Assembly: GCA_937950315.1 (NCBI GenBank)
Contig: CALFDU010000046.1
Span: forward strand, 1-64,000
Length of the DNA stretch: 64,000 nt
From: an uncultured Saprospiraceae bacterium
GTDB lineage: Bacteria > Bacteroidota > Bacteroidia > Chitinophagales > Saprospiraceae
Direction of reading: 5' to 3'
Shown: piece after piece, positions 35,862 to 62,621 of the stretch
Numbering within the stretch: the first letter of the stretch is position 1
Layout of the letters: each line of letters opens with the position of its first letter
The notes under the pieces: model-generated
The model's input: the letters and a program-made list of their open reading frames with translations, nothing else
Told to the model about the DNA's origin: nothing
Databases searched by the model: none
Program-made: the position numbers and the translations under genes

Positions 35862-35992
35862 TGCTACTTCCTTTTGATCTGAGCTCAAATTTATTTTAAA
35901 TTACTTACTTCATGACCAAATTTAAAACACCTTGTCGAAGATAATAGTTTCAAGTATCGAAGTATATAAACCGTGAAACTGTTTCTAGTAAA

Positions 35993-36028
35993 AACAAAAA
36001 AAGGAGGCCTGTCGAGGACCTCCTTTTA
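35993..36028 (-). terminator. Rho-independent terminator of the SprB/SdrD-B giant gene
   Basis: On the minus strand AAAAGGAGG and CCTCCTTTT form a 9-bp stem around a TCCTCGACAGG-type loop, followed by a T7 run and further T's. It lies 24 bases after the stop at 36052. Confidence 0.9.
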
Positions 36029-36051
36029 AAATTTATCAATACTATTAAAAC

Positions 36052-39894: not shown

Positions 39895-39913
39895 TTTAAC
39901 TATTGTATTTAAC

Positions 39914-39951
39914 CTAAAAAAATAGCAAACCACCTTGCGATGGTTTGCTAT
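39914..39951 (-). terminator. Rho-independent terminator of the 39959 gene
   Basis: A perfect 11-bp stem, ATAGCAAACCA/TGGTTTGCTAT, with an 8-base loop; on the minus strand it is followed by a T7 run. It starts 7 bases beyond the gene's stop and ends only about 20 bases before the next start (39894). Confidence 0.9.
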
Positions 39952-39958
39952 CTATTCC

Positions 39959-42900
39959 CTATTTAACATGTACTACAAGCATAGTATGATCAAAGGATCT
40001 TGTCTGAATCCTTAACATCATTGTTCCATACTCGTTAAAGTCTGTGTGCGTAAGCGACACATTATTGTTACCAGCTTTTAAACTGACCTCTTTCGTATTG
40101 ATTAACTGTCCTTGAGTATTGTAAATATTGATTACCCCTACTTGATCTTCTTCTACACTAATCTCAATATTTGTATCGGTTGAAAATGGATTAGGACTTG
40201 CATTGCTAACAGCAAATGCTACATCTGTTTTCGCATCCAAATCAAGACCAATTACTTTCATATTCTCATCGTACATTTCTGATTGAAGAAGATCTTCTAC
40301 AACAGATATTTGATCTATTGAACCAGAACCGTGGATAGTGAACAATGGAGTATTTGCCTTAGTAGTTGCACCTTCAGCATCATTGTAACTCACGATCAAT
40401 TTGTCGTCTACAAATCTGTATTGTGAATCTTTGATATTCCAAGTTCCTGGAGCAATGAATGCTCCTTCAAATGTATTTCCTAAGTCAATCACCATCTGTG
40501 CACCACTTACTTTAAATTCTTCACTTGCGTAAATATTTATTTCAGATTCGTATCCATTGTGATTTACTTCGTATTGCAATTTCGTAGATAATGATCTTGT
40601 TGCAACTTCAGGTTCACCAGTAAGATTCGTAATGACAGAGTTATTGACATCACCCATTTTTACAGCTACAAAATTCAGATTAACATCATTTGCCAACGAG
40701 CTAATTTCATATGTCTGGTTGAATGAAGGTGACCATGGATTTTCTTCATCAACAAATACATGTGAATCTTCTATAAAAGTCCAACTTCCAACTTCAGGGA
40801 ATTCATCATAAACTCCTAGAACCAATTTTCTAATCGTGATCAAATCAAGACCAGAAACAGAATTACTATTGTTAACATCTGCTGCTATCAATTTGTAAGG
40901 ACTATCTAAATCTGTGATTCCTAAAATATGTCGTTGGATCATTACAATATCGATGGTACTTACACCATTGTGGTAGTCGTCATTTTTCAATGGTGCAATT
41001 TCGTATTGTCCACCTATTGGCATGTTAGGGAAAGCGTACAAACCTTCCTCATCTGTCATTTCTGGAAACAATGGGCTTCCCATTAGATTCACCTCAACAT
41101 TTTCAACATTGATATCTTCTTCAGTATAAATTCTTCCACTTACGTCTGCTCTTGCTCCATCGTTTCCAGTACAAAAATCAACATTGTTGTTGTCTTGTAC
41201 ATCTACAAATGTTTGACAAATCGCTGATAAACCAGTGTTCACATCTGTCACCCAAAGGTCAACATAAAAAATACCGATATCGTCACAGTCTAATTCTAAG
41301 AATGTGTCTGTCGTATCAGCTGAGAAACTTGCCACTACTTCATTTCCACAAGGTTGGAAGCTCTCTTGGTTAAAGTCGTTTGCCCACAATACAACCATTT
41401 CATTGTCAATTTCTCCATCACCATCTAAGTCCATTGGATTAAGATCTACGCTCAAACCAAAAATACAGATAGCTTGAGGCGCTCTGTCATTGAAAATCTT
41501 CAATGGTTGGTGACAGAAACTTTCATTTCCGCAAAGGTCAGTAACGATCCATTCGATGATGTGATCTCCAACTGGGTACATGCCTGTAATATTAGAACCA
41601 ATACCTGTGTGTTCAAAAGTTCCGTCTGCATCTAAATCCAAACTCCACTTGTATCCTAAATCCATCGTACAATCATCCATTCCCATTACAGAAACATCTA
41701 TAGCAACTTCATCACAGTCTCCATCATTGGAACTGAAAGTTACAGGTGCACAAGTAATGGTTGGATCGATAACATTGGAAACAATCAATACTTGATCGTA
41801 TTCGTACGTAGTGTACTCTCCATCCACTGTTTCACACCAGTTAATCAAAGTCCAGTGTCTGATTATTTTAAAACAATCTGTTGAATTAGGATCTGCACTG
41901 AAGACATCATCGTCCCAATTAAAGCCTACCAAGTCACAAGATCCACTTGCCACTACTGGATACGCAAATTCTGCATCCAATCTGTCTGGCTCCAAGTTGT
42001 CGGTATTACAACCTTCAAGCGCAAAATCTTCTGGCCAAATAATATCATCGGCATTGAATGCGTCAGTAGGTAATATTGTAATGTTCTGGATACACGATGA
42101 GATTACCTCACCTCCTTCATCCAAAACAAATATTTCTCTTTCCAAAACTCCAGTGTTACAAGAGTTTGGTTCAGTTAAAAATCTTTGTTGTACGTTGTTT
42201 GCATTGGTACAGTTATCGGAAACGATCGGTGCACCAAAAAACTGATTTGGTTCATTTAAATCGTACGTATCTGTACAGTAGATAGTCATATCATCCGGAC
42301 ATGTAATTTCAGGTGCAATTTTATCTTGTACGTGAACTACCACCATACATTCATTAAAGTTACCTGCATGATCAAGCACTCTTAATACAACCAACACTTC
42401 TTGACCCACATCACTACAGCAGAAGAATACTGATTCATCAAATAAAATATCCTCATTAGTACATTCTGGATCCATTCTTCTTACGTAGATTTCGGCGATC
42501 CCACACTCATCATGACTTCCATCATCAAAAGTCTCAGCCCATACTTCTACATTTCCATCATGCGGCAAAGCTACCACTGTATTTATTTCACATACAGGAA
42601 CCGGACTGGTGCTATCAGCAATGACAACCTCCACATCGATGCTTGAACTATTTAAGCATTCATCAAACACCGTATAGGTTACCGTATTTATTCCTATTGG
42701 CAATTGAACCACTCCTCCATTGGAGTTTTGCAACATGCCACCTGGATAGGTTATATCAACTCTGCTTACCTCTCCGCAAGCATCATATGCTTCTACTGGA
42801 GGCAATTGAATTACTCCACTACAATCGTGAGAAGTCGAACCATAGATCGTTGGTATTGGAGTGATTACTGGACCAACATCATCGGTGATTTCAATAATCT

Positions 42901-44185
42901 GAAGACTATTGGCTTCAAACTCTCCGCTACAATGCCACTCTCTCACGCTCCACGATCTCAAGATTTTTGTCTTACACCCTTGTGTTAAAACTTGATCAGA
43001 ATAATCAACAAAAATATTGCATGATCCATAACTAACACCAGGCTCTAAAGGAGTACCATAAATAAATGGAATACCAGTTCCTGATCCAGTCAACGGACTG
43101 TTCAGTGGACTTGGATTTCCATTTTCATCAAGAGGAAAAATTCCATCACATGATAATCCTGAACCTGTAAAAGGATTTATATCAGAAGGAAAATCAATAT
43201 CATCCAATATAATTCTCTCTACAAGAATCTCTACCTCACATGGCAAACTTTGAATTCCGTTTCCATCAACAGCAACATACGTTCTTACAATTCTTGAAAG
43301 ATACATGTCATCACATTCAAATGGATCTTCAGTCTCATCGATGATGACCAATGTAGCTTCGTTGGCACAATTGTCTCCTGTGATAGGAAGTTCAATTAAA
43401 TCCAAACCATTACATGTTGTAATGATAGGTTCGGTTGGACATACAATTTGAGGTGGAAATTTATCTTCCAACACAACTTGAGACCAACATGAATTTCCAC
43501 CACCCACAACACTCACTGAAGCAGTTAGTTCTTGATACAAAGCATCTGCAGTTAAGATCAAACCATCAGGACCTTCAGTCCCAATACTATTTCCATGCTC
43601 ATCAGTTACTTCAATATTGAAATGCGTCATACAACCCAAGTCCGCATTGGTCAAAACCATAAACGGAGTGATTAATATTTCACATTCTTGATTAACAGAT
43701 AAATTTAAATTTTGGCAAGACATTGCTCCTTGAAAGCCAGACTTGACATCTATGCCAACAGTGCATGTAATCAATTCGCCTTCGTGATCGGTAAAACCAT
43801 ACACAGCCTCGTATGTGCCAGGTTCCAATGGTGTTCCATCGCCAGCACCGGGTGCCGAATCAGGAATAGGACCTGACAGTAATTCAAGACCACCATCCAA
43901 TCCAGTACTCACCGTAATGATAGGTGGAGCAAAGAACACGGTAGTGTCACAATTATTAATGTCTTGTATAGTTACCACAACGTCGTTTTGACATTCTATT
44001 CCAGACAGATCTACTTGAAATCCTTCGGATTCAAGCAAGTATGCCTCTTTAAGAATGATTTTTTCTTCTGATTTATCGATGAAATCATCTAAATCAGGGT
44101 GATTTGTTCCTCCAACTGCACAATACGACAATAACATGCACAGTAAGGACAATGGTAGTTTAAACCATGAGACCTTAGTCAACAT
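39959..44185 (-). CDS. Giant secreted HYR-like protein with dockerin-like, cohesin-like and T9SS domains, 1408 aa
   Basis: A signal peptide (about 1-25) is followed by repeated HYR-like beta modules (about 55-1010) with VEDKFPPQIVCP, VQDKIAPEITCP and FCCSDVGQ motifs. Next is a CarboxypepD-reg-like segment (about 1025-1060), dockerin-like EF-hand repeats (about 1065-1125; ID-x-V-x-IQRHILG and DVNNSNSVSGLD) and a third half-repeat KMGDVNNS. A cohesin-like beta-sandwich (about 1198-1310) and a T9SS type A sorting domain (about 1328-1408, SPNPFS) end the protein. It should be exported to the cell surface. It is a shorter paralogue of the 3699-aa protein upstream. It has its own promoter block and a perfect terminator. 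Confidence 0.92.
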   Translation of the reverse strand: MLTKVSWFKLPLSLLCMLLSYCAVGGTNHPDLDDFIDKSEEKIILKEAYLLESEGFQVDLSGIECQNDVVVTIQDINNCDTTVFFAPPIITVSTGLDGGLELLSGPIPDSAPGAGDGTPLEPGTYEAVYGFTDHEGELITCTVGIDVKSGFQGAMSCQNLNLSVNQECEILITPFMVLTNADLGCMTHFNIEVTDEHGNSIGTEGPDGLILTADALYQELTASVSVVGGGNSCWSQVVLEDKFPPQIVCPTEPIITTCNGLDLIELPITGDNCANEATLVIIDETEDPFECDDMYLSRIVRTYVAVDGNGIQSLPCEVEILVERIILDDIDFPSDINPFTGSGLSCDGIFPLDENGNPSPLNSPLTGSGTGIPFIYGTPLEPGVSYGSCNIFVDYSDQVLTQGCKTKILRSWSVREWHCSGEFEANSLQIIEITDDVGPVITPIPTIYGSTSHDCSGVIQLPPVEAYDACGEVSRVDITYPGGMLQNSNGGVVQLPIGINTVTYTVFDECLNSSSIDVEVVIADSTSPVPVCEINTVVALPHDGNVEVWAETFDDGSHDECGIAEIYVRRMDPECTNEDILFDESVFFCCSDVGQEVLVVLRVLDHAGNFNECMVVVHVQDKIAPEITCPDDMTIYCTDTYDLNEPNQFFGAPIVSDNCTNANNVQQRFLTEPNSCNTGVLEREIFVLDEGGEVISSCIQNITILPTDAFNADDIIWPEDFALEGCNTDNLEPDRLDAEFAYPVVASGSCDLVGFNWDDDVFSADPNSTDCFKIIRHWTLINWCETVDGEYTTYEYDQVLIVSNVIDPTITCAPVTFSSNDGDCDEVAIDVSVMGMDDCTMDLGYKWSLDLDADGTFEHTGIGSNITGMYPVGDHIIEWIVTDLCGNESFCHQPLKIFNDRAPQAICIFGLSVDLNPMDLDGDGEIDNEMVVLWANDFNQESFQPCGNEVVASFSADTTDTFLELDCDDIGIFYVDLWVTDVNTGLSAICQTFVDVQDNNNVDFCTGNDGARADVSGRIYTEEDINVENVEVNLMGSPLFPEMTDEEGLYAFPNMPIGGQYEIAPLKNDDYHNGVSTIDIVMIQRHILGITDLDSPYKLIAADVNNSNSVSGLDLITIRKLVLGVYDEFPEVGSWTFIEDSHVFVDEENPWSPSFNQTYEISSLANDVNLNFVAVKMGDVNNSVITNLTGEPEVATRSLSTKLQYEVNHNGYESEINIYASEEFKVSGAQMVIDLGNTFEGAFIAPGTWNIKDSQYRFVDDKLIVSYNDAEGATTKANTPLFTIHGSGSIDQISVVEDLLQSEMYDENMKVIGLDLDAKTDVAFAVSNASPNPFSTDTNIEISVEEDQVGVINIYNTQGQLINTKEVSLKAGNNNVSLTHTDFNEYGTMMLRIQTRSFDHTMLVVHVK

Positions 44186-44273
44186 AACTTTTGATTAAAT
44201 AGGTTGAATAATAGTATTAACTCGAATAGAGCTTACTATACTGTTGTCTGGGAGGGATGTATGACAATAAAAG

Positions 44274-44325
44274 CAAATATATAACTAATTGTTTAATATG
44301 TATCTAAATATTACGATTTTTTTTA
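44274..44325 (-). promoter_or_regulatory. Conserved promoter block of the 1408-aa gene
   Basis: On the minus strand an A8 tract (TTAAAAAAAATCGTAAT) is followed 36 bases later by TATATTTG, a full match to the TAnnTTTG -7 box. The same block occurs before the 3699-aa gene at 55626-55678. No clear -33 TTG is present. The ATG is 89 bases downstream. Confidence 0.6.
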
Positions 44326-44327
44326 AT

Positions 44328-44364
44328 AAGAAAAATCCGAGCCTTTTTGCAAAGACCCGGATTC
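44328..44364 (-). terminator. Rho-independent terminator of the 3699-aa gene
   Basis: On the minus strand AATCCG (44358-44363) and CGGATT (44334-44339) close a hairpin, followed by TTTTCTTATT. It lies between the stop at 44409 and the next gene's promoter block. Confidence 0.7.
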
Positions 44365-44408
44365 CTTCTAAATTCTTTTATTTCTAGCCTTTTACGGCTA
44401 TTATAGGC

Positions 44409-47400
44409 TTATTTCACAAGCAACATTTTTTTAGAAATTTTGTGCCTATTTGTAATCAACTCATAGTACAATACTCCTGTTGTTTCAATATCAACTTTAC
44501 TAATCTGTAGTTCATTCATACCTGCTGAGGCTTTTTGAATGATCGTTTTGATCAACTTTCCATTGATATCAAATACATTAAATGTTACATCTTGCTCAGT
44601 TGACATATAGTAACTGATTGTTGTTGATTCTGACCATGGGTTTGGATTGTTCTGATATAGAACAATTTCATTTTCAGTTTCAATTCCTGTATCTGGAAGC
44701 AATACAATTGATCCAACTTCACTGTTGAAGTATGACTCAGATTTCATTGCTTTTTCATTAATACTAATTGCTTGACTAACCGAACCATTGCCTTTTGACA
44801 ATACTCTGACAGTCATCATAACATACTGCTCGTCATTGTTCAATTCATTTCGCTTGTTCCAACTCACTTTCACTTCACCTTGATCAATGTTGTTTGTGTT
44901 TACATTAGAATTTGAATAGAGTGTTTCTTCGTTAAGTATCACCTCCTCAATCATCAATAGATCTTGATCAAGGTTGAATGCAAACTGCATTCCATCAAGG
45001 CTTGTCTCAACATTTGCGCTAAGCTCGATATCAAATACCTCACCATCTGCAAAGTCTTTCTCATTGAAATGAATCAACAAGTCTCTATTACTTCTAGACT
45101 CTACCGAAGCAGAAGAGTGGAATCCTGTTGAAGCAGAACTATTGATATCTCCCACTTTTACCCCAATGAAGTTCACATTCATATCAATCTCAAATTCATT
45201 GATATAGTATGACTCATCAAAGTTGGACTTCAATGGATCGTTAGGATCTGGGAATACATAATTCTCATCAACCATTCTCCAGCTAGAAGCTGTAAACTCA
45301 TCTTTTATTCCTAGAATTAATTTTCTTAACTCGATAATATCCAGCGACGAAACTGACTTAGAGTCATTGACATCTGCTGCGATATGTTGGTATGGACTAT
45401 TAAACTCTTGAATACTTAAGATGTGTTTTTGAATCTGTATGATATCCAATGTAGAAATACCATTCAAGTAATCTCCATGCTTCTCTGGTAAGATCGTATA
45501 TGGACCATCACCAAAAAGCATACTCGGGAAAGCATAAGTTCCAATATTGGTTGTCATCACATTTTCAAATGGACTTCCTACCAAAGCAACTTCTACATCT
45601 TGTACAGGTACATCTAGTGGAGTATTCACTGTTCCGGTTACAAAACCATCTGGTGTAGCCAATCCACAGATTTCTCTCCATCCATCAGCTGGATCTCCGT
45701 CACCGTTAGGGTCGTTGGAGAAGAATACAACTATTCTACATGAATCGATCACTTCTCCATCAATATAGAAGTAGAGATTATCGTTGATATTTGGATTGAT
45801 GCCATTATCAATAATCGTCTGACAATCATATGTTGCGAGGGTATCATTGATATTCATATCATCATATGAAATATCTACATCGATATGACCACACTCGTTA
45901 TCAACGATATCATAATCGTTTGAATTGATATCAATTGATCCATCAGGCTCCATGGCAAATATAAATTTCTGACAGTTGAATGTAAGGCATCCCTCTCCTA
46001 CCACTGAAACTTCTAATTCGTCTGTAGAAACGTTTCCACAAGCATCTGTTGCTGTCATGGTGATCGTTAAATCTTGATCCAATGCACAGAATTCAACATC
46101 AAAAGAAACTGATCCATCTGCGGCAACTGGTGTCTGACTTACCAATCCTGGTGCATCAATTGTAACGGTAACATCACCTGACTGTAAACAGTCATCTGTT
46201 ACATTATAATCCAATGTAATGATCGCACTACATGTGTTGTCTTCATCTGTTAAATCAACTGTCAAGTCATCAGGACTCGTTCCGATTACTGGAGCAGTTG
46301 AATCAGTAATATTTATCACTTGCGTAAATGTGAATACACCTCCTGGCAATTGACAATTGTCCGTTACAGTAAATGTTCTTTCAATGACGAAATCACAAGT
46401 TCCATCATCATTGATCAAAACATCTTCTGATGTAATCACAATATCTGAGCATTCTGCATTTGAAATATCAACAACAGGCATGTCATCGATATCTGGATCA
46501 GAACAATCAATTGTCACTGGTGAATCTGGCCATACAATGTCATCTATCGTTATAGGACTCAAGCCACCTTCGATTGTGACAATCTGAGTGCACATCAATG
46601 GATTTCCATCAATACCATTTAATACATTGCCAAGAATATCCTGCAGCGTAAAGGTACGCGTGATCACACCGATATTACAGCTATTTAAGTTCATGACCAC
46701 TTCCTCTTCATAATCAAATGAATTTGAACAATTGTCTATGACTCCGCCCATATCTGGCACGCCAAATTCATCCAAATCAGAAATATCAGCATCACATTGT
46801 ACTGTGACATCTGCTGGACAGAAAGTAGGTGACAATGCTGGTGGTACGTCATCCTCAATGGTTACTGTTGCTGTACATGTAGCTGTATCGCCAATGTCAG
46901 ATGTAACTGTTAAGGTTACAATATTTTCTCCCACGTTGTTACAACCAAACATTGTGAAATCCAATTCCATTTCTAAATCGGAATCACAACCTGCAGTACT
47001 TCCATTATCGATATCCGCTGCTGTAATAAACACTTGTCCTGCATCGCCCAATGAAACAGTAATATCTTGAGCTACACACATGATTTCACTTACATCCATT
47101 AAAATAACATCTGCCGAACAAGTACTTGAATTACCAAAGGTATCTGTCACAGTTATATTTAGTACATTCTCTAGCGTTTCTGTCTCCTGACCATTCAACA
47201 TATCACAATTTACAGTCAACTCAGTAAATGTAGTAGTCGCAAGAGCGCCACAATCATCCATGACCGTAAAATCGAGATCATCTAGGGTGATCAGCATGTC
47301 ATCACCTGTTAGGTTTACAACAAAATCTTGGATGCTACACACCGGTGCAACTCCGTCATTAACTGTTACGTTAGCTGTACAAGTTGAAGAATTACCAGAA

Positions 47401-50400: not shown

Positions 50401-53400
50401 ACAACTGTACCACCTTGAGGTGCATTGTTAAGGAATCCTCCAGGATACTGAATATCAACTTGGAATGGTCCATCACAATCATCTTCGATACTTGCCGGTG
50501 GCGGAAGGAATACAGATCTTTCACAACTATCACCTGATGTAGATAATATTTCATTATCCTCACAGGTTACCACAGGTGCATCTTGATCTTCTATTTCAAT
50601 CGTTTGCATATACGTTTCTATCACTCCTAATCCACAATGTGCTTCATACAAAGTCCAAGTACGTACATATTTTCTTACACATCCTTCTTCAGCAACAGTA
50701 AGTGTCTCAACATCTATTCCTACGTTACAGAAGAAATCTGGGAATGGATACAATGGTTCATCCCAAAATGTTGGTACACCTGCAAATTCAATCGATGGTG
50801 TTCCGTCTTCTCCGTAAATAACATCTGAGCATTTAAGTGCAGTACCATCTATTACCCTGTAACTTGGTGCTTCCACTACTCTATCAAAATCAAATCTTTC
50901 AATCAAAATAGTTTGCGAACATGGTTCAGAAACATTTCCTCTATCATCAATAGCATGGTATGATCTTTCTACTCTCTTGGTATAATCAGGATCACATACC
51001 AAAGGCGTAACAGTTTCACTCAGTATAACAACCTCAGCCACTTCTCCACAATTATCTGTGGCAATTGGCATGTATGTCTCCATCAAATGACAAGCAATTG
51101 TAATGTCTCCACATTGAATTTCTGGTGCAAACTTATCTTCGACAAATATGTTGGCCCAACATGAATTACCCGAGCAAGAATCGATTAACTTGACAGTCAA
51201 TGTCATGCCAATATGTTCTGCAGTAATTGTATTGTTTATAATCGGGTTGTTCATTGGATCAAACAACATTACACCATAAGCAGCATCTGCATCTAAAGTT
51301 CCAGCATGTATCATTTCTGGCGTTACCAAAATTTCACAATCAGAATCCATTGATACATTTGTATCAAATATGCAGGCAATAGCACCCGTACCACCTCCTA
51401 AGTCAACTTCTATAAATCTTGGTTCAGTACAGATATCTATTCCACAATCAACTTCTACTTGAATAGTTCCTCCACTTGCGCCCCAATTGTATGTAATTGT
51501 TTCATCAGTCTGAGTTGTTCCATCAGGAAGTGTCCACAATACTGTACAAGCATCATCCATTTCTATACTGTAAGTTCTGGCTGAACCTGCGCATGCAGAA
51601 TAAAGACTTTCACCTGGATCTGTGGTTACATTGATATCTGAATAACCGCATCCAGTGTTGCTGTGTTGAATAAATAATCCAAATTCGTTTTGTAATCTTA
51701 TTTCATATCCAGCATTTTCTACATGGATACCTTCAATAGTATATTCACTATACCCACCTTCAACAATAGTCTCTACCAATTGGTATCCAGATTCACCTGA
51801 CACAAATGGTATTGGTGCAGCAGGTGGATTGCCACTGGCTGTTGTGTAAAATCCATTTACATATTCAATAAACCATGTCTCACCGGTCTTCGACCTAATT
51901 TTAATTGCATCAAGAAATTGTCCGTTCATACTAGTCGTAGCATTACCTAGACACATACATTCCGTTTCAACATCCAATTCTGCAACAAATATTCTAGCCG
52001 GATCAGAATCATCTTCATCTACCAAACCATCATCATCAATTCTGTCATCTTCATCTGTATCTGGTCTTCCACCGATATCGTTGCTTGCATCACCATCAGG
52101 AAAAGAATCACAATCGTATTGAGCAACATCAAATCCAAACAAATCAGTTGCTGACATTATTTCTGCAAAATTATCAATAGGAGCCAATTCTGCATTAGGT
52201 GAAACAATGGTATTCAACGACAAAATCACAAAGTCGTTTGGTTGAAGTCCACCTTCTACTTGAACAGTTTTATAAACACTTTGGCTATTTTCATCTGAAA
52301 TCCAAGAATCATCATTTAGAATTAAGTTTTCGTGCATATAATCAACGACAAGGATATTATCCAAAACAACTTCACCTTGGTTGTATACATAAATTAAAAA
52401 TTCTACTTCATCACCTCTCTGATATGATGTTTGCCTAGCTTTCTTCATCAAAGCCAAATCAACTTTCAAACCAGAGATCTCTGCGATATCATGATCATCT
52501 TCATCCGTTACGCCAAAGTCGAAAATTTCATTATCTACAAGAAGATCATTTCCTAAATCAGCATCTGCATCAGAATCTACATCTACCCAATTTCCTGTTT
52601 CGGATCTTGCATCAGATATTTCAACTGTATTTCTTATAGCTTGTCCATCGTCAAAACTTCCAACTTGGAAAGTTACTTGAACGACCTTAGTCTGACCCAC
52701 AGCAAGTCCCGCATTGTCTCTAAACGAAATAACATTTGGAGCTTCTTGAATCCATCCATTTTGACTTGGCCCAGAAAGAAATGTCAATGTTGACGGGAAT
52801 TCATCATGGATCGTGAAATTTTGTGCAGCTATATTTCCTTGATTGATCACAGAAATATTAAACGTTACACGCTCACCTGGTTGGTAAGGTCTTGTTTCAC
52901 TTACCAATTTTCTTATCGCCAAATCAAATACTTCAATAAGGGCAACATCGTGATCATCTTCATCAACTGAAGGATCTTCATTGATACTGTTGTCTGTATT
53001 TGTATTTGCGAAAGCACCGTTATCATTGTCATCTATATCATCCGCAGTTGAATCGATATCCGAATTTACATTTCCAAACTGATCAACAGTTCTAGAAATT
53101 TCTGCGAAATTTTCAAAATCCAAATCGTTTCTTTCAGTCAATGTCAGAACGATTGGCACTGTAAATGAATCGTTTGGTTGTAATGCTTCAGTATGAACAT
53201 ACTTTGCTTTTCCATTGTCTACTGTCCACTGTGGATTAGCAGATGCTTTGAATGCAAAATTTCTATTTAAGTAGTCTGTTACTTCAACTTCAGTAGCAAC
53301 CACGTCTCCTTGATTGATTACTTCTATCAAGAAAGTAACATCTTCATTCATTTTTGGAAAAGAGTTACCACTCACAGTTTTAATCAATGCTAAATCAAAA

Positions 53401-55508
53401 TTTGTTGGTGCTACCAATCCAATATCATAACTATGATTTACTTCATCGTCAGATGTAATCGAAACCGGAATTAAGTGCCTTACATCTTGTCCTGCACATG
53501 TATTGGCATCAGTAATTAAATCTGAACCCAATTCACTATCTACTCCAGTTGATGTAAGATTGAATGAAGCACCATTAATATTATAACCGCCATTGGTTAA
53601 GTTTAAAAAACTAGGATCAATACTTACATAGTATTGCTGATTTGTATACAATCCATCAAATACTGGATTTGTCAAACCAACGTTAGAAACATTGGTATTG
53701 TTAAATCTATATATTCCATTTGCATCTGTTGTAGTAACACCTACAACATTGCAAGCTGCATCAAGTAAAACGATATCTAGCCCTACGACAACCTCTTCAC
53801 TTGGATCTTGAATCCCGTTAGAATTGGCATCAAACCAAACATAGTTACCTATTTCTGGACTTGGTCGAGGACACACTGCAACCAATTCGCCAAAGCCAGT
53901 CGCTTTACCAAATTGATCAGAAAGATTTTGTGCGTATAGCTCTCTACCATTGATATAAGTTCCATCTAAAGTATTGTATCTATGTAATCCACCTGCATAA
54001 GCATTAAACAATGGATCGTATACTGCTGCTACCACTTCACCAGAACCTGGCAAAGCAAAAAACGATCCCAATGCCACTTCATTGTGGTAATTAGGATTTC
54101 CTGGAAAGAAATCAAAACCAAAAAATTCACCACCATCTGGACCTTCGCCGTTGTCAACTCCTGACCCTATTAGTGAACCTGCAACTCCATTAGACTCAAG
54201 AGTCCATGTGCCATTGTTGTTCCAAGCCATCAATAAATCTGGATATTGTTGATCTACTCTTCCAAAACTTCCATCACAGAATGTATGACCGTATCTGTCT
54301 GATAAACCTATTAACATATTTCCTTCATCAGTGAAGTCAATATCTGAAAACCAATGAGAAGTAATAAATGCACCTGGATTACTATCATCCCAGTAACCTC
54401 TTATTTCATTGGTCTCAAAAATCTCAACAAAAGATCCTGTCGAAGGGTCAAATTCATAGACTATTGCAGATGAGTCATTATTAGACAAGGAAATCGAACC
54501 ATCACAAGTAATTCCTACATAATACCTTCCTTCGTGATATTCAAGTGCAAAAGATCTTGCAACTCCTCCAGTACATCCTGGATCGGGAATTGAAAATTCT
54601 TGAACATTTGATGAAGTAGGATTGACAAGAGGAATCCTTACCAATGTATTCTTAAAAATATTGACTGCATACAGGGAACCACCATCTGGTGATAATACTA
54701 TATTTCCTATTCCAACTTTTCCAACTTGTGATCCAAATCCGCAATCAGATTCATCCGCGATCAAAAGTGATCCTGTATCAATACCTAAGTCTGACAACTT
54801 TACAAATATTTCTGTTCTACGAGTAGACAAGTTTGTTTTAAATATTGCATCGTGGCCATATGGAGTCAAAGCCGCATATTGCTTAACAAAAGAAGAAGAA
54901 TATACATCTTGATTTTTATCATCGTATGCCAATCCCCAGATAGAACCTGTTTCAGCTTTTGTCGCATAAACAGTTGTAGGAGTTGACGGATCAAACTGAT
55001 AATCTATACCTAAAATGGTAGCATTGCCTCCAAATGAAGTAATATCTCCTCTTACAAAGCATGTTACTAAAAGTTCGGGATTATTATTACATCCGACGCT
55101 CGCATTGGTTAAACCAAAATTCACATTACATGCAGGCACAGAAACATTTCTGATATCAGATAAGTGATCCGTTCCTATGTGTGATGAATTATATCCTTGT
55201 ATAAAGGATACTTCAACTCTATAGGAGTCATCATTTGTTAATCCGGAAAATTGATAATTTCCTGAAGAATTGGTGAATTCAGTAGCTATAATACTACCGG
55301 TTTCATCAAACAGTGTAATTAACTTTCCTGATACACCGTTTTCAGAGGATTCAAATCCTCCATTGACGTTTTCATCAAGAAATACACTTCCTTCTATTAT
55401 TCCATCCGAACATTGGGTATGTCCAAATATTGGAAATAGAAGTAAAAAAATCGCTACGACTAGTGATTTACACACCAGTCCACCTGCATGGCTACAGAGT
55501 TCTCTCAT
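44409..55508 (-). CDS. Giant (3699 aa) secreted protein: beta-propeller-like, DUF11, HYR, C-type lectin, dockerin-like, cohesin-like, T9SS
   Basis: A signal peptide (about 1-31) is followed by an SdrD-B-like domain (about 35-120), a beta-propeller-like region (about 150-540), and a second SdrD-B domain (about 555-700, NYVWFDANSNGIQD). Three DUF11-like repeats start near 703, 861 and 1014 (x-NQG-x motifs). HYR-like modules run from about 1335. A C-type lectin domain (about 1793-1919; FAQAKGGHPAI, WIRSQ, YFIGINDADQEGTFVWNNG, YTNWNGG) sits inside one such module. A run of short HYR units (about 2580-2960) follows. The end is a CarboxypepD-reg-like segment (3290-3340), dockerin-like (3345-3400), cohesin-like (3475-3605) and T9SS sorting domain (3610-3699). 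It is predicted to be a surface adhesin or fibre. The 11.1-kb frame is intact. Confidence 0.92.
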   Translation of the reverse strand: MRELCSHAGGLVCKSLVVAIFLLLFPIFGHTQCSDGIIEGSVFLDENVNGGFESSENGVSGKLITLFDETGSIIATEFTNSSGNYQFSGLTNDDSYRVEVSFIQGYNSSHIGTDHLSDIRNVSVPACNVNFGLTNASVGCNNNPELLVTCFVRGDITSFGGNATILGIDYQFDPSTPTTVYATKAETGSIWGLAYDDKNQDVYSSSFVKQYAALTPYGHDAIFKTNLSTRRTEIFVKLSDLGIDTGSLLIADESDCGFGSQVGKVGIGNIVLSPDGGSLYAVNIFKNTLVRIPLVNPTSSNVQEFSIPDPGCTGGVARSFALEYHEGRYYVGITCDGSISLSNNDSSAIVYEFDPSTGSFVEIFETNEIRGYWDDSNPGAFITSHWFSDIDFTDEGNMLIGLSDRYGHTFCDGSFGRVDQQYPDLLMAWNNNGTWTLESNGVAGSLIGSGVDNGEGPDGGEFFGFDFFPGNPNYHNEVALGSFFALPGSGEVVAAVYDPLFNAYAGGLHRYNTLDGTYINGRELYAQNLSDQFGKATGFGELVAVCPRPSPEIGNYVWFDANSNGIQDPSEEVVVGLDIVLLDAACNVVGVTTTDANGIYRFNNTNVSNVGLTNPVFDGLYTNQQYYVSIDPSFLNLTNGGYNINGASFNLTSTGVDSELGSDLITDANTCAGQDVRHLIPVSITSDDEVNHSYDIGLVAPTNFDLALIKTVSGNSFPKMNEDVTFLIEVINQGDVVATEVEVTDYLNRNFAFKASANPQWTVDNGKAKYVHTEALQPNDSFTVPIVLTLTERNDLDFENFAEISRTVDQFGNVNSDIDSTADDIDDNDNGAFANTNTDNSINEDPSVDEDDHDVALIEVFDLAIRKLVSETRPYQPGERVTFNISVINQGNIAAQNFTIHDEFPSTLTFLSGPSQNGWIQEAPNVISFRDNAGLAVGQTKVVQVTFQVGSFDDGQAIRNTVEISDARSETGNWVDVDSDADADLGNDLLVDNEIFDFGVTDEDDHDIAEISGLKVDLALMKKARQTSYQRGDEVEFLIYVYNQGEVVLDNILVVDYMHENLILNDDSWISDENSQSVYKTVQVEGGLQPNDFVILSLNTIVSPNAELAPIDNFAEIMSATDLFGFDVAQYDCDSFPDGDASNDIGGRPDTDEDDRIDDDGLVDEDDSDPARIFVAELDVETECMCLGNATTSMNGQFLDAIKIRSKTGETWFIEYVNGFYTTASGNPPAAPIPFVSGESGYQLVETIVEGGYSEYTIEGIHVENAGYEIRLQNEFGLFIQHSNTGCGYSDINVTTDPGESLYSACAGSARTYSIEMDDACTVLWTLPDGTTQTDETITYNWGASGGTIQVEVDCGIDICTEPRFIEVDLGGGTGAIACIFDTNVSMDSDCEILVTPEMIHAGTLDADAAYGVMLFDPMNNPIINNTITAEHIGMTLTVKLIDSCSGNSCWANIFVEDKFAPEIQCGDITIACHLMETYMPIATDNCGEVAEVVILSETVTPLVCDPDYTKRVERSYHAIDDRGNVSEPCSQTILIERFDFDRVVEAPSYRVIDGTALKCSDVIYGEDGTPSIEFAGVPTFWDEPLYPFPDFFCNVGIDVETLTVAEEGCVRKYVRTWTLYEAHCGLGVIETYMQTIEIEDQDAPVVTCEDNEILSTSGDSCERSVFLPPPASIEDDCDGPFQVDIQYPGGFLNNAPQGGTVVLPVGQHTIMYTVSDACGNSSQCPMEVTIVDETSPTAICDQNTIVALRGDGTAEAFASTFDDGSSDDCNLYTLLVQRIDQPEDCPCDLPSFHDMDYLGELDGHFYYLSKNKTTSFQSYAFAQAKGGHPAIIETDNENAWIRSQVDGLLAGEEYFIGINDADQEGTFVWNNGYPVNYTNWNGGAPVNTADFVVATADGTWAVVPEGREEAYVLEITDPCGWSDFVNFCCEDAGLEHMVALRAVDDFGRVTNCMAMVEVQDKIAPQITCPAPVTIECTQPIDMSNLAAQFGMATAVDGCQSEVVELDPLVAIDNCGVGQIKRTFRASDTNGFEECEQLITIINSNAFDESRITWPEDYFSDEGCNAGALTPENLPAGFDEPVVVEEFCDLVGVEHRDDIFFFTGDDADACFKILRTWEVFDWCTFDEEDSDLNSIDESTDDGIIPGFFTRQQTIKINNTVDPVITGCEFQEQCTFDCDSGFIELRASATDDCTPSENLVWSFEIDLFADGVPDSPAIAMSGIGGNIVADGTYPVGLHTILYTFEDRCGNMVSCLKEFEIVNCSGPTAACIQGLAVGLEAMDLDGDGVFDTEMGCVWAFAFDASSSHPCGQELEIVFCDDPNDPSTYTDEKCFDCADCGTQVVNICVIDEVGNVDFCTTTVEVQDNNSVDLCEDASTCVIPPVSELLVETCDLDFSPETIGGQPDVTADCFCDDFTMEFSDDVLETALTDCTAIIRTWTVTPNCGCTSSTLQYTQNIMIMNLENPTVTAPVNVSAVANDDCQAVGVDVGLAIAFGACNTGLLISNSHNGGGNDASGTYPLGITEVIYTVTDDCLNTGTAMAIVEVTDESAPSCDAVDVTVVLDNQDSGTVTLSDISSGVTDNCDDDPDVFILTIDGQMVTSQDYDCTDLGVNSIVVIVTDEAGNSTTCAADVTVVENEPPVCTATDIVVAITQGNSVTVTSSDLGIGATDNCSGDAELTVTPSSFVFDCDDIGDNTVTFTVTDASGNSSTCTANVTVNDGVAPVCSIQDFVVNLTGDDMLITLDDLDFTVMDDCGALATTTFTELTVNCDMLNGQETETLENVLNITVTDTFGNSSTCSADVILMDVSEIMCVAQDITVSLGDAGQVFITAADIDNGSTAGCDSDLEMELDFTMFGCNNVGENIVTLTVTSDIGDTATCTATVTIEDDVPPALSPTFCPADVTVQCDADISDLDEFGVPDMGGVIDNCSNSFDYEEEVVMNLNSCNIGVITRTFTLQDILGNVLNGIDGNPLMCTQIVTIEGGLSPITIDDIVWPDSPVTIDCSDPDIDDMPVVDISNAECSDIVITSEDVLINDDGTCDFVIERTFTVTDNCQLPGGVFTFTQVINITDSTAPVIGTSPDDLTVDLTDEDNTCSAIITLDYNVTDDCLQSGDVTVTIDAPGLVSQTPVAADGSVSFDVEFCALDQDLTITMTATDACGNVSTDELEVSVVGEGCLTFNCQKFIFAMEPDGSIDINSNDYDIVDNECGHIDVDISYDDMNINDTLATYDCQTIIDNGINPNINDNLYFYIDGEVIDSCRIVVFFSNDPNGDGDPADGWREICGLATPDGFVTGTVNTPLDVPVQDVEVALVGSPFENVMTTNIGTYAFPSMLFGDGPYTILPEKHGDYLNGISTLDIIQIQKHILSIQEFNSPYQHIAADVNDSKSVSSLDIIELRKLILGIKDEFTASSWRMVDENYVFPDPNDPLKSNFDESYYINEFEIDMNVNFIGVKVGDINSSASTGFHSSASVESRSNRDLLIHFNEKDFADGEVFDIELSANVETSLDGMQFAFNLDQDLLMIEEVILNEETLYSNSNVNTNNIDQGEVKVSWNKRNELNNDEQYVMMTVRVLSKGNGSVSQAISINEKAMKSESYFNSEVGSIVLLPDTGIETENEIVLYQNNPNPWSESTTISYYMSTEQDVTFNVFDINGKLIKTIIQKASAGMNELQISKVDIETTGVLYYELITNRHKISKKMLLVK

Positions 55509-55625
55509 TTGACCTTAATTAAAATTGTAAATTCCTTAAAGTGCCCCAAATATTGGGTACTTCGGTTTACTGTAACTGGGAGATGGGTAATCGGTTTTTG
55601 GTCAAAATGATAGCTAATATCTCGA

Positions 55626-55678
55626 CAAATATATAACGATTATTCGTAATATGTAATCATATTACAATTTTTTTTAAT
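55626..55678 (-). promoter_or_regulatory. Conserved promoter block of the 3699-aa gene
   Basis: Minus strand: A8 tract (TTAAAAAAAATTGTAAT) then, 35 bases on, TATATTTG. Spacing and sequence match the block at 44274-44325. The ATG is 118 bases downstream. Confidence 0.6.
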
Positions 55679-55787
55679 TTGAAAAGAGCTGATATACTGC
55701 GCTTTAGCTTGCACATTGTTTTCTGAATGTGAATTTAAAATATCCACATTAATGATCTTAAGTCTCCAACTTACCTAAGCGCTCTAC

Positions 55788-58700
55788 TTATTTGATCAAT
55801 ATTCCTTTCTTTGTTATACTCTTGTCGGCAGATTTTAAACTGTAGAAGAAAACACCTGAAATGCCTTTAAATAAGGACCTATCAATAGAAATCTCATTGA
55901 TTCCGCTATGTCCTAATGCTGATAAGGTATACAATATTTGACCGTCCATATTGGTGAACTCTAACTCATATTCTTGGTCTTCAGGAAGCCAAAACGATAG
56001 CTTAGCTTGCTCTACCATAGGGTTAGGTTGCATCTGAAATAATTCAAAATTTTTCTTAGAATTAAAATCAAGTTGGATACCTGACACCTCTAAAACATCG
56101 CCAGAGTAAAGTTCATTGGCAAAATCAACAGTCTCTAGGTGAAACTCGTTCCCATATGCATCATTGGTAATCACGGAAAAAAGAATCTCTCCCTCTTGTA
56201 CATGTACCATCTGTGTTCCATTCCAACTAAATCGAAGCGAATGATTTCTTAAGGCCATATTTTCTGGTCTCATAACGATAGCCCCCGGTATGATTTTAGT
56301 CGTTTCTTTTATTCCGCTCAAGGCAAATTGAAAACCTGCAATAGAAATTGCCTTAGAACTTACAAATGAAATCTTTGTTCCTTGAGCCGTTGATTCTTCC
56401 TTCACAGAAATGATCATTTGCGAAAGCGAACGAACATGTATATCACCATCAATCATATTGGTGATGGCACTTTCGTTCACGTCACCAGATTTTATTGAAA
56501 CAAAATCAAGTGCTTGCTCATTCATATCCAAATCTTCAAGATTCATCAACTCATTGAATGGCCAAGGATTATTGATATCCATTGTTTCGTTACTTGGCAC
56601 TAGTCTCCAACTTTCATTCCCTTCAATATCTTGGGTGATACCAAGTATCAGTTTTCTGAGCTTGATCAAATCTATGGATGACACACGCTCATCATTACTG
56701 GCATCTGCGGCAATAATTTTATACGGGCTATCTAGCAATTGAGTCCCCAAAATATGTTTTTGTATGAGGACAAGATCCAAAGTTGTTACTCCATTTAACC
56801 AGTCATCATTTTTTGATCCTGTTAAGGTATAACTCGCATACATTGGATTGCTTTCAAATTCGAAATTCCCATTTTCATCTGTAATCAGATTTTGAGGATA
56901 TCCTGGCGCATCGCTTTCCAAGATCATGGTCATACCTTCAAGATTATTTCCTTTTTCAGTGGATACATTCCCGGCTATGATCGCTCGTGCTCCAGCAAGG
57001 CCGCATGCATCCATATTGTCAGACAACTGAAGATTGACATCACAGTAATCATAATTACCACACAAATCCCAAACATACATCGATACTGGTAAGATACCTC
57101 CAGCATTCAGAGTGACTTCTAGATCATCGCAATCAAAAATCTTAGAGCTACTTCCTATTGCTTCGTTCCAAAGTTCTGCATCCCCGTTTATATAGGCACT
57201 TTGACTGGCAACACCATTCTCATCATACCATGGATCATCTTCTTCAGAATCTACTAATTGTGGAGGAACATTTGAACTAAATGTATAAATCAAATATTCA
57301 TTATCTGTACAATTGTCAAAACTTCCTGTATCAAAATCCTTTGCCCAAAGTTCTACTCTGCCATTCTGCATGAGTGCCGAACTAAGCGATAGACAATATG
57401 GTGTAGGTTTCTTCAAATCCTTAATCGTTACATATTGTGTTTGACTTTTAAAGTTTCCGCAGCCATCTTCTACCTTCCAATGCACTCTATGGACCTGACT
57501 ACAATTGGCTTCAATCCCATCTGGTAAATCTAGGTACATCGTATCCATCGTCGGAGTGAGATAAAAAGGATCACTTGGATCTAGTGATGTACTAAAAGTA
57601 TAATCGACCTCCCAGTCAGCATACAAATCAACATCTACTTCCCATTTCAACCAATCTGTTCCACAAGCACCGTTATCGGTGGCAGATGCTACCAATTGAA
57701 TTCCTTCTCCGACACAATCAACATTAGAAGAGACAATGGTATCTTGTACATACAAGTTAGGTTCGACAGAATCGAATAATCGAATTGTTTGTGTATAATT
57801 TAGCACACCTTCTGCAAATCCATCGTCGAGTCCTGGCTCCGGAATATCGTTGTTGTCCGGATCCAATGGATCGTACTGACACCAATTGATCACAGACCAA
57901 TGGTTTAAAATTTTAAAACAAGTACCTGTCTGAAAATAAAATGTATCACTTACAAGGCTGGTTCCAATGGTCTGGCAGATATCTTCAAGCACAACTGGTT
58001 CTCCAAATTCTCCACCCAAACAATCGACTGTTTGGTCTTCAGGCCATTCTACTTCCAGCGGTTCGGTACTTAGCGGTCTTACGATAATCCATTGAGTGCA
58101 ATTGGATCCTCCACAATACCAAGTTCTTCTTATTGCACCTTCTCTACAAGTTGGATTGTATGCAGGAATTTCTTCACCGATAAAAGGTGCAGATGTGGCT
58201 GGTTTGGTTTGGAAATTGTCATTTGGTGCATCGCAACCGGTTGGAAAACAGGCTCCTTGTGCGGAAGGTTCTCCTGTCTCCATAATATTATTAATATCTA
58301 CTTCGCAAGTTACCTCAATGTGATCTGGACAATCTACAATAGGAACCAATTTATCTTCTACTCTAACGGTCGTCCAAGCCTCATTAAAATTATCCCCTAG
58401 CGTTCCAAAAACTCCATTGCCATCACCGTCATCCCATACTCTTATTCTTACCTCGTACTCTCCATAGGTCTGTCCATTTTCGTCAACTAGATAAAGGTCT
58501 TCACAACAGAACTTTACAAATTCGCCATCGTCGTCATCTGAATCAAGGTCATCTGAATGACCATCATCATTGAAGGTGGCGTTGCCTGGATGGCAATAGG
58601 TGTTCCCATCTGTTCGACGAATTTCAATCTTTACATCGGAGCAACTGTCAAAACTATGGTTGTCTACATTTTCTGCAAACAGCTTGGCTGTTCCATTCCC

Positions 58701-60479
58701 TTGGAAATCACTGGTCAATTGAATTACTAGATTTTCAGTCGTGATGGCAACGGGTGCAGTATCATCAACCACGGTTACTTTTACCTCAGATGTGCTTTGG
58801 TTACCACAACAGTCTTGACCATAATAGGTGAAGGTATGAATCCCCACTGGAACGTAGAGTGCCGTGTGTCCAGTAAAAATAATTCCCGTTGGACCTGTGA
58901 CCCAGTAATTGGTTTCATTATCACAATCATCATAGATATGATCTGGTGGAGGCATCAAAATATCTGCATGACATGAACCTGGATCAACACTGACTGTAAT
59001 ATCAGAAACAGTCAAATCAGGACCATCAATATCTGTTATCTTAATCAACTGATCAAAAGTAACACTAGTTCCTTTGCACCAATCAATCAATGACCATGTA
59101 CGCGTTATTTTGGAATTACCATAACACCCTGCTCCACACAAATCAAAAAGCTGATCTTGAAATCCAACATATAGATTACAAGTATTACTTGTAATAGGTG
59201 CAGCATGATAATTTCCATCATAGCCTTTGGTCACATAATATGGATAGGCATAAGGAATGCCTTCATTGTTTTCTTCTAGAATGGTTGTCTGCACATAATC
59301 ATCTAGGGGCCCTGAAGGGGTATTGGGGGTATCTATATCATAATAATCAGCAACATTACTAGGTAGAAAATTACTTCCGCATGGAAGCACGACTTCTCTT
59401 TCTGGCAAATAGTAATCGTGCACACCTTGGGCAGGCCATTCTTCCCACAACCCATCGATGGTATTACCTGCGTCATTCAATTGGATTGCTTCAAAGAAAA
59501 ATTCTTCTACACAATACTCAGTCAATTGATGCCCGGTATTAAAATTATAAACAAAACCTGTTGACCTTGTTACAAGTTTACTTCCACATCCATCTGCTTC
59601 GGAAATGGTATACGTGGGCTCAAGGGCTAGAAAGTTATTGCAATTATCAATCGGTTCATCAAGTTCAGGCAGTAATAATATCAGCGTCGTCGTATCAATC
59701 AAATCGGAACAATGAAAAGTGCAATGTGGATTTTTAATAATAAAATCACCATTCAATACACTCGCATCAACGATAAAATCACCCACATTAAATGCAGTAT
59801 TTATAAAATGAGAAACTACTAGATAGTACGTACTGTCCTCGTCCAAAGTCATGGAAATATTTGCGGAAGCGATACCATCACCGTCTATCGCAATCAGGTT
59901 CTCACAAGGATTGGTCTGATCAAAATATCCTTCATAAAGAGAAAGAAAAACATTGGGTTGTGATATGCTTATATCTGTCATTTGGAAGTTGGTTGAACCG
60001 GCAGACTCAATACCAAATTCAAAAACTTCATAAGAAACAGGAATACCTGATTCGCAACCCACACTAGAGACAACATCTGGTCTTACATATATGGGGCTGT
60101 TGTCATCCAAGGTACCTTCCAGCTCCTCAACATCAAGTAAAAATGATTCGCATTCGCAATTGATTACAGGTGGCAATTTATCTTCTACCAATAAATAACC
60201 ACCACAAGAGTTTCCTCCATTCCCGATGCTAACGGTATACTGATACCAGCCGGGTTCATCTATAATTGTTCCATCAATACCTTCAATTGTAAATTCAATA
60301 TTACAGCTTGCAGGAGGCAAGGTTCCTTGAATCAGCATCTGGAGTGTTACATCAACTTGGCAGTCAACATCCAGTGCTACATTTACCTGTCCATTGCATG
60401 CAAAAAAGCATTGAGCATCCAATCTTAAGATACTAGAGCATACCAATAGTAGGATAACTCCATAAGATCTCGGGTTCAT
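55788..60479 (-). CDS. Giant secreted HYR-like protein with dockerin-like, cohesin-like and T9SS domains, 1563 aa
   Basis: A signal peptide (about 1-22, ending LRLDAQC) is followed by HYR-like modules (about 25-1180) with VEDKLPPVINC, FCCEDLY and VEDKLVPIVDCP landmarks shared with the two paralogues downstream. A CarboxypepD-reg-like segment (about 1180-1220), dockerin-like repeats (about 1226-1280; LDLVLIQKHILG and DASNDERVSSIDLIKLRKLILG), an IKSGDVNES half-repeat, a cohesin-like sandwich (about 1350-1470) and a T9SS type A domain (about 1480-1563, QPNPMV) follow. One module has a very acidic loop (DDLDSDDDDGE, about 637-647), possibly Ca2+ binding. Stop and start are clear; no strong terminator was found before the next gene. 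Confidence 0.9.
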   Translation of the reverse strand: MNPRSYGVILLLVCSSILRLDAQCFFACNGQVNVALDVDCQVDVTLQMLIQGTLPPASCNIEFTIEGIDGTIIDEPGWYQYTVSIGNGGNSCGGYLLVEDKLPPVINCECESFLLDVEELEGTLDDNSPIYVRPDVVSSVGCESGIPVSYEVFEFGIESAGSTNFQMTDISISQPNVFLSLYEGYFDQTNPCENLIAIDGDGIASANISMTLDEDSTYYLVVSHFINTAFNVGDFIVDASVLNGDFIIKNPHCTFHCSDLIDTTTLILLLPELDEPIDNCNNFLALEPTYTISEADGCGSKLVTRSTGFVYNFNTGHQLTEYCVEEFFFEAIQLNDAGNTIDGLWEEWPAQGVHDYYLPEREVVLPCGSNFLPSNVADYYDIDTPNTPSGPLDDYVQTTILEENNEGIPYAYPYYVTKGYDGNYHAAPITSNTCNLYVGFQDQLFDLCGAGCYGNSKITRTWSLIDWCKGTSVTFDQLIKITDIDGPDLTVSDITVSVDPGSCHADILMPPPDHIYDDCDNETNYWVTGPTGIIFTGHTALYVPVGIHTFTYYGQDCCGNQSTSEVKVTVVDDTAPVAITTENLVIQLTSDFQGNGTAKLFAENVDNHSFDSCSDVKIEIRRTDGNTYCHPGNATFNDDGHSDDLDSDDDDGEFVKFCCEDLYLVDENGQTYGEYEVRIRVWDDGDGNGVFGTLGDNFNEAWTTVRVEDKLVPIVDCPDHIEVTCEVDINNIMETGEPSAQGACFPTGCDAPNDNFQTKPATSAPFIGEEIPAYNPTCREGAIRRTWYCGGSNCTQWIIVRPLSTEPLEVEWPEDQTVDCLGGEFGEPVVLEDICQTIGTSLVSDTFYFQTGTCFKILNHWSVINWCQYDPLDPDNNDIPEPGLDDGFAEGVLNYTQTIRLFDSVEPNLYVQDTIVSSNVDCVGEGIQLVASATDNGACGTDWLKWEVDVDLYADWEVDYTFSTSLDPSDPFYLTPTMDTMYLDLPDGIEANCSQVHRVHWKVEDGCGNFKSQTQYVTIKDLKKPTPYCLSLSSALMQNGRVELWAKDFDTGSFDNCTDNEYLIYTFSSNVPPQLVDSEEDDPWYDENGVASQSAYINGDAELWNEAIGSSSKIFDCDDLEVTLNAGGILPVSMYVWDLCGNYDYCDVNLQLSDNMDACGLAGARAIIAGNVSTEKGNNLEGMTMILESDAPGYPQNLITDENGNFEFESNPMYASYTLTGSKNDDWLNGVTTLDLVLIQKHILGTQLLDSPYKIIAADASNDERVSSIDLIKLRKLILGITQDIEGNESWRLVPSNETMDINNPWPFNELMNLEDLDMNEQALDFVSIKSGDVNESAITNMIDGDIHVRSLSQMIISVKEESTAQGTKISFVSSKAISIAGFQFALSGIKETTKIIPGAIVMRPENMALRNHSLRFSWNGTQMVHVQEGEILFSVITNDAYGNEFHLETVDFANELYSGDVLEVSGIQLDFNSKKNFELFQMQPNPMVEQAKLSFWLPEDQEYELEFTNMDGQILYTLSALGHSGINEISIDRSLFKGISGVFFYSLKSADKSITKKGILIK

Positions 60480-61888: not shown

Positions 61889-61910
61889 ATTTTATACTTT
61901 AGGTTTTAAA

Positions 61911-62618: not shown

Positions 62619-62621
62619 CTG

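Follow-up and report, generated by a model that had tools for sequence, protein, structure and literature searches.

The first 64,000 nucleotides of contig CALFDU010000046.1 (GenBank assembly GCA_937950315.1, an uncultured Saprospiraceae bacterium), hereafter the window, contain three giant open reading frames (ORFs) in tandem whose products carry a dockerin and a cohesin-like domain on the same polypeptide. The ORFs encode the proteins P0001 (1408 aa, 39959..44185), P0002 (3699 aa, 44409..55508) and P0003 (1563 aa, 55788..60479) and are located on the reverse (-) strand, as are all the window features described below. P0001 has a HYR-like N-terminal part and P0002 contains SdrD_B, DUF11, HYR and C-type lectin regions. 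The original prediction was that these proteins bind to one another and self-assemble into a surface fibre or network. A surface assembly based on cohesins and dockerins is supported by our analysis of the sequences, although what the data favour in the first place is a dedicated multi-cohesin protein, encoded at another site of the genome and co-conserved with dockerin proteins. The three proteins are probably clients of a cohesin-dockerin scaffold, in which a scaffoldin anchored in the outer membrane would gather non-enzymatic adhesins.

The ORF coordinates were confirmed, and the C-termini align in the order claimed beforehand. The common C-terminal module comprises about 420 residues and is composed of a CarboxypepD-like sandwich (X domain), a type I dockerin, a linker ending with KxGDVN, a cohesin and a type A tail of the type IX secretion system (T9SS). 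The three C-termini are alignable end to end, P0002 and P0003 displaying 32-33% identity with P0001. Within the trio, the identity is 60-62% for the dockerins, 18-24% for the cohesin sandwiches and 21-27% for the tails. The X domain was delimited by alignment in P0001 (residues 1009-1069, 40979..41161; Pfam CarboxypepD_reg weak, E 0.072), in the AlphaFold model for P0002 (residues 3284-3345, 45474..45659) and by a Pfam match below the cut-off in P0003 (residues 1162-1225, 56805..56996; E 2.3e-4). The alignment also reveals the conserved linker, which ends with KMGDVN in P0001 (residues 1126-1182, 40640..40810), KVGDIN in P0002 (residues 3402-3457, 45138..45305) and KSGDVN in P0003 (residues 1282-1336, 56472..56636). 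The tails of P0001 (residues 1328-1408, 39962..40204; 24.5 bits), P0002 (residues 3619-3699, 44412..44654; 29.3 bits) and P0003 (residues 1482-1563, 55791..56036; 24.9 bits) are all above the cut-off (23 bits) of the NCBIfam type A sorting domain TIGR04183. The Pfam family Por_Secre_tail remained below its own cut-off in the three window proteins.

The dockerins correspond to residues 1068-1125 of P0001 (40811..40984), 3344-3401 of P0002 (45306..45479) and 1224-1281 of P0003 (56637..56810). In the full proteins, the scores with Dockerin_1 (PF00404) are 23.7 bits for P0001, 23.1 for P0003 and 17.8 for P0002, for a Pfam cut-off of 22.9; P0002 exceeds the cut-off when its module is searched alone, and the three proteins are above it in the search of the whole genome. 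Two calcium-binding dockerin helices had been proposed, and the dockerin assignment is retained. Judged by the calcium-ligand pattern that we assume for such loops, the second loop keeps the usual ligands D..N/S..D/S..D. The first loop, (N/D)xD..NGVSTxD, is non-canonical, with no acidic residue at position 5, yet it is conserved. The invariant K, G and D at the end of the linker might complete this first loop.

The beta-sandwich following the linker had been called cohesin-like by pattern only. PF00963 (Cohesin) gives no match to P0001, P0002 or P0003 at E<=1, and the profile search therefore identified the family through relatives and not in the window proteins themselves. The module set comprised 82 sequences, the three of the window and 79 loci fetched from GTDB contigs out of at least 588 relatives in the scan, these 79 being selected by exact dockerin patterns. 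Phaeodactylibacter xiamenensis, a cultured relative, is represented among the loci with the module (L083 and L086). At E<=0.01, Pfam detects Dockerin_1 in 80 of the modules, Por_Secre_tail in 79, CarboxypepD_reg in 60 and Cohesin in 47. When a profile was built from the module alignment, it recovered solved cohesins (3l8q, E 1.2e-6 over the entire chain and 0.027 for the best single stretch; 5g5d, E 0.002) and solved dockerins (8zvk, E 6.4e-7; 4dh2_B, E 1.4e-5), in both cases at the expected places. The AlphaFold model of the P0002 module has a mean predicted local distance difference test score (pLDDT) of 92.8 and a predicted template modelling score (pTM) of 0.82. Residues 195-327 of this model, included in the cohesin domain of P0002 (residues 3472-3607, 44688..45095), match type I cohesins with Z scores of 10-11.4 (4ums, Z 11.4 and root-mean-square deviation (rmsd) 3.0 over 124 residues; 1ohz_A, Z 10.8 and rmsd 3.1 over 123 residues), so that the module of the 3699-aa protein, modelled alone, has a predicted cohesin fold at Z about 11. 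In Foldseek, the first rows are cohesin proteins, with a cohesin construct on top (E 6.8e-9). Residues 331-420 match the C-terminal region of PorU (6za2, Z 11.1) among many Ig-like folds; the comparison by Z score covers the cohesin and tail parts of the model, and the X domain and dockerin barely. The corresponding domain was defined in P0001 (residues 1197-1318, 40232..40597) by alignment to P0002 and to relatives matching PF00963, and in P0003 (residues 1350-1472, 56064..56432) by alignment. On the basis of the Pfam matches of the relatives, the profile comparison with solved cohesins and the fold predicted for P0002, the sandwich domain can be assigned as a cohesin. An artefact or a chance resemblance was rejected as an explanation, since 47 of the 82 modules match PF00963 and the model displays a type I cohesin fold.

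The draft genome to which the window belongs (4.30 Mb, 165 contigs) encodes 20 ORFs with Dockerin_1, and a profile of the dockerin and linker (A4) gives 24 matches in it. The trio represents only three of these 24 matches and is not a unique set. Two of the A4 matches were missed by Dockerin_1, at C115:24399-24740 in a 7918-aa frame and at C7:79904-80245 in a 1590-aa frame. The whole module, with dockerin and cohesin together, is carried by 18 of the 20 Dockerin_1 ORFs and is also intact in all 79 fetched loci. This association is what would be expected if, in line with the original prediction, each client dockerin bound the cohesin of a different client, so that a fibre or mesh could form with no need for a scaffoldin. 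However, no folded part of the module is less conserved than the client cohesin: in the 18 modules of the genome, a set itself found by a dockerin profile, the commonest residue of each column occupies on average 0.77 of the rows in the dockerin versus 0.41 in the cohesin. The alignment including the 79 loci (A3) shows 3.1 bits for the dockerin versus 1.7 for the cohesin, values biased by the selection on dockerin patterns, and the conservation argument is for this reason based on the set of the own genome. A network made of clients alone also leaves a conserved multi-cohesin neighbour, described below, unexplained, and we regard it as unlikely.

A second possibility is that the module works in cis and has no partner in trans, the dockerin packing against the cohesin of the same protein or the entire block acting as a rigid stem that folding or T9SS export requires. 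The order of the blocks is fixed, and the pTM value hints at a defined arrangement, though the linker preceding the cohesin is the weakest part of the model (mean pLDDT 68 for residues 181-190). A dockerin and a cohesin paired in cis could freely change in concert, whereas here the dockerins remain similar and the cohesins have diverged; as the three dockerins of the trio are closely similar and the adjoining cohesins are about 20% identical, one shared partner fits better than three pairs in cis. The two Dockerin_1 proteins devoid of cohesin are a 1149-aa protein on contig C6 and a redoxin-dockerin on contig C74, and the latter retains the IQRHIL motif without cohesin or tail, a further point against a purely internal role. 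The presence of dockerin ORFs beside multi-cohesin ORFs far above chance (see below) also argues against it, and this explanation appears slightly more doubtful than the client network. The redoxin/thioredoxin-like protein itself (345 aa, G000:C74:19831-20877, L037) has a C-terminal dockerin with the IQRHIL and GDV motifs and neither cohesin nor T9SS tail. Dockerin ORFs of similar size (344-357 aa) are found in the genomes G026, G038, G069 and G115.

A candidate for the shared partner was detected on contig C17. In the own genome, PF00963 has seven matches, four in dockerin ORFs, two in one frame of C17 and one in a 689-aa frame of contig C15. The C17 protein, P0005 (1278 aa), contains four cohesins according to a local hidden Markov model, three of them as Pfam stretches (E 9.6e-18), together with Gly-rich linkers, SprB repeats and a type B T9SS signal (CHU_C, E 1.5e-18; TIGR04131, 39.7 bits for a cut-off of 35). 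The next gene encodes P0007, a member of PorP/SprF (E 2.2e-51), and three dockerin-cohesin giants surround this pair (C17:25315-29805, 35873-42337 and 42941-47356). Besides CHU_C, Cohesin and SprB, Pfam gives nothing in P0005 at E<=0.1, and no carbohydrate-binding module (CBM) was found in it; some true scaffoldins are also devoid of CBM. The genome contains SprA and 12 PorP/SprF genes. The C15 locus (C15:13161-15230, L032) lies outside the scaffoldin cluster. Its 687-aa product has a type A tail and a single partial match to Cohesin, which at 22.9 bits narrowly misses the cut-off.

The type B signal, the SprB repeats and the SprF neighbour of this candidate are those of SprB, and the scaffoldin could be imagined as a modular SprB dragged by SprF along gliding tracks, with the clients as exchangeable gliding adhesins. 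In Flavobacterium johnsoniae, according to the available part of the source (PMC12635249), SprF is linked to the moving track by a disulfide through a Cys-X-Cys motif in its tail. Among 54 SprF proteins neighbouring multi-cohesin ORFs, none has Cys-X-Cys in the last 45 residues; one of them, encoded in a short frame close to the end of a contig, has a pair of cysteines outside that motif, and 10 further SprF neighbours have no cysteine in the last 45 residues. Because the motif is missing from the neighbouring SprF tails, motor coupling is very improbable and this version is largely refuted.

The distribution of the two partners was examined in relatives, whose shared ancestry means that genomes cannot be counted as independent events. 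Among 119 genomes drawn from the order, all 21 rows from the family of the window genome have cohesins (1-17 each) and dockerins (3-24 each), versus a cohesin match in 19 and a dockerin match in 38, mostly a single one, of the 98 genomes outside the family. We searched 100 genomes of the family, and neighbourhoods were fetched for the own genome, for 17 relatives from the order draw and for 63 chosen by a match to the scaffoldin query. An ORF with at least three cohesins was verified in 72 of the 100 genomes; the other 28 comprise two with one cohesin at the best match, 16 positives that were not examined and 10 without a cohesin match. All 72 genomes with a verified multi-cohesin ORF have A4 matches, versus two of the 10 without a cohesin match (Fisher 1.3e-9), and both of these matches are single and weak (G419, 1e-10; G427, 6e-5). 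The type B signal is present in 70 of the 73 multi-cohesin ORFs ending inside their contig, and PorP/SprF is encoded directly downstream in 64 of 71 assessable loci.

In the own genome and 57 relatives, an ORF with 3-10 cohesins is found in 58 of 58 cases. It bears a type B signal in 56, the two remaining ORFs being cut by the end of the contig, and is directly followed by PorP/SprF in 54 of 55. Of the 58 neighbourhoods, 23 also contain a small ORF with one cohesin and a type A tail, and 39 a dockerin ORF. Concerning the dockerin neighbours, 31 of the 63 genomes chosen by the scaffoldin match only have a dockerin ORF in the fetched region versus 3.4 expected, assuming random gene placement. 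The 17 relatives from the order draw were left out of this count, some of their regions having been drawn wide around a known dockerin. For the 40 loci fetched first, which are mainly stronger matches with long frames, the values are 25 versus 2.5 expected. The largest array noted is a 2537-aa ORF of the genome G091 (L131, 1042-8652) with ten tandem cohesins, a type B signal and a PorP/SprF neighbour. In G411, G415, G424, G425 and G462 (L188, L196, L197, L198 and L210), multi-cohesin type B ORFs were observed that are about 1900-2100 aa long and have no PorP/SprF gene directly downstream. The multi-cohesin ORFs without such a neighbour may constitute a second scaffoldin class whose carrier is encoded elsewhere.

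Several observations weigh against a scaffold for the trio. No scaffoldin is encoded in the 64-kb window that carries the three genes, and the clients bear their own anchor signal. The query made of the P0005 cohesin region has matches in 90 of the 100 family genomes (A4 in 91), a figure that is not a count of scaffoldins since this query can match client cohesins, and 16 of the 90 positive genomes fell outside the neighbourhood check. The cross-table of this query and A4 over the 100 genomes (89/1/2/8, Fisher 2e-9) is partly built in through the same client matches. Because of this possible cross-matching, only ORFs with at least three verified cohesins were counted above. In the 23 genomes with weaker matches, the features are less regular: at least three cohesins in 21, with a single cohesin at the locus in two, a type B signal in 14 of the 17 ORFs ending inside the contig, PorP/SprF in 10 of 16 and a dockerin ORF nearby in six of 23.

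The cohesins themselves fall into groups that follow the type of protein. A tree of 138 cohesins (43 from clients, 25 from one-cohesin proteins and 70 of the 246 from scaffoldins) was obtained with FastTree, 57 of its 135 inner branches having a support below 80. The labels need 7 changes on this tree versus 57 when shuffled, and the client cohesins need two and group apart from the scaffoldin cohesins, a further argument against clients binding one another in place of a scaffoldin. Outside the family, A4 has matches in 14 of 244 genomes of the class, five of them strong, and PF00963 matches are found in four of these five. In one genome outside the family (G651), 102 bases separate a 1345-aa dockerin-cohesin ORF from a 2071-aa one with three cohesins; for the latter, the models used detect neither a type B match nor a PorP/SprF neighbour. 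Cohesins are common in the other classes of the phylum (98 of 296 genomes).

Domains, signals, gene order and co-occurrence are the observed elements of the proposed scaffold. According to the available text of PMC9143113, type B proteins are anchored in the outer membrane by a PorP-like partner and type A proteins by lipopolysaccharide (LPS). By analogy with this biology, the T9SS would export both the type A clients and the type B scaffoldin, PorP/SprF would hold the multi-cohesin protein in the outer membrane, and the clients would be released or tied to LPS. The conserved dockerins of the clients would then bind cohesins in both the scaffoldin and the small one-cohesin proteins, and a single anchor may in this way display many different adhesins (HYR, SdrD-like, DUF11 and lectin). 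The cohesin beside each client dockerin would let more clients join and give a branched surface coat. The binding, its specificity, its need for calcium, the surface location and the adhesive function are what we infer in this mechanism. There is about an even chance that the family as a whole possesses a non-catalytic counterpart of the cellulosome in T9SS bacteria, in which a PorP/SprF-held scaffoldin of 3-10 cohesins gathers giant adhesins, up to dozens of them, by a single conserved dockerin specificity and branches into an exchangeable surface coat, the branching being proposed because each client brings a further cohesin.

The same module types could also belong to an ordinary cellulosome, with polysaccharide-degrading enzymes as clients of the scaffoldin, and a precedent with dockerin enzymes is proposed for Ca. 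Stygibacter in the accessible part of PMC8542988. A Pfam scan of 15 of the 24 clients (the three of the window and 12 others, two of which lack the N-terminus) reveals HYR, SdrD_B, DUF11, C-type lectin, Ig-like and P-domain regions. No catalytic domain was found at E<=0.001 in these 15 clients out of the 24 matches. Together with the lack of CBM in P0005, this makes an enzymatic complex scarcely credible, and it was rejected. The system proposed here nevertheless resembles the clostridial cellulosome by the combination of a multi-cohesin non-catalytic protein with many dockerin proteins per genome and by the type I cohesin fold. The one-cohesin surface proteins presumably resemble the single-cohesin anchors of cellulosomes. 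Contrary to the clostridial complex, the present system displays T9SS export, a scaffoldin anchored by PorP/SprF and without CBM in P0005, adhesin-like clients with their own cohesin and a non-canonical first calcium loop.

Cohesins and dockerins outside cellulosomes are already known, as is a proposed T9SS-linked scaffoldin with dockerin enzymes. The latter was proposed for Ca. Stygibacter (Cloacimonadota), where, in the part of the article available, dockerin proteins share a genome with a scaffoldin-like protein that combines tandem cohesins and a C-terminal domain of the T9SS type; these dockerin proteins are enzymes (GH18, GH57 and peptidases), the scaffoldin has CBM2/CBM3, and the complex is a prediction from metagenome-assembled genomes of another phylum (PMC8542988). 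The adhesin/anchor pairs SprB-SprF and PG1035-PorP share with P0005/P0007 the type B signal, the PorP/SprF partner and the SprB repeats, whereas SprB is not described with cohesins in the accessible text (PMC9143113) and the SprF proteins here have no twin-cysteine tail of the motile SprF. In anaerobic methanotrophic (ANME) archaea, abundant non-cellulosomal cohesin and dockerin modules occur together with HYR adhesion domains; these organisms are archaea without T9SS, and no scaffoldin-carrier gene pair is mentioned in the described text (PMC5244752). The same source, as far as its text is accessible, states the function of cohesins and dockerins outside cellulosomes as an open question. In the accessible text of a 2024 survey of cellulosome genomes (PMC11557425), the words Bacteroidota, Bacteroidetes and Saprospir are missing.

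A search of the literature by titles and beginnings of abstracts, in partial listings, found no description of this system in these bacteria. A 2009 study reportedly showed that such modules occur far outside cellulosomes. In the literature searched, no scaffoldin was found that has a type B signal and a PorP/SprF of its own and whose clients are non-enzymatic and each equipped with a cohesin; this combination is apparently new. The gene set is compact and conserved (scaffoldin, carrier, one-cohesin protein and clients), which makes the question of the non-cellulosomal cohesins testable with recombinant domains, and the family possessing it is common in marine and wastewater samples. If the scaffold exists, cohesin-dockerin assembly would also serve to display adhesins, and the carriers of type B T9SS proteins would be bases for large surface complexes.

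The gene adjoining the trio in the window encodes P0004 (1293 aa, 36052-39933, (-)), which contains seven stretches of SprB repeats, SdrD_B domains and a type A T9SS tail, with neither dockerin nor cohesin. On the other side (60656-63998, (-)), the starts of the ORFs resemble, by eye, ClpX and trigger factor, indicating a housekeeping cluster.

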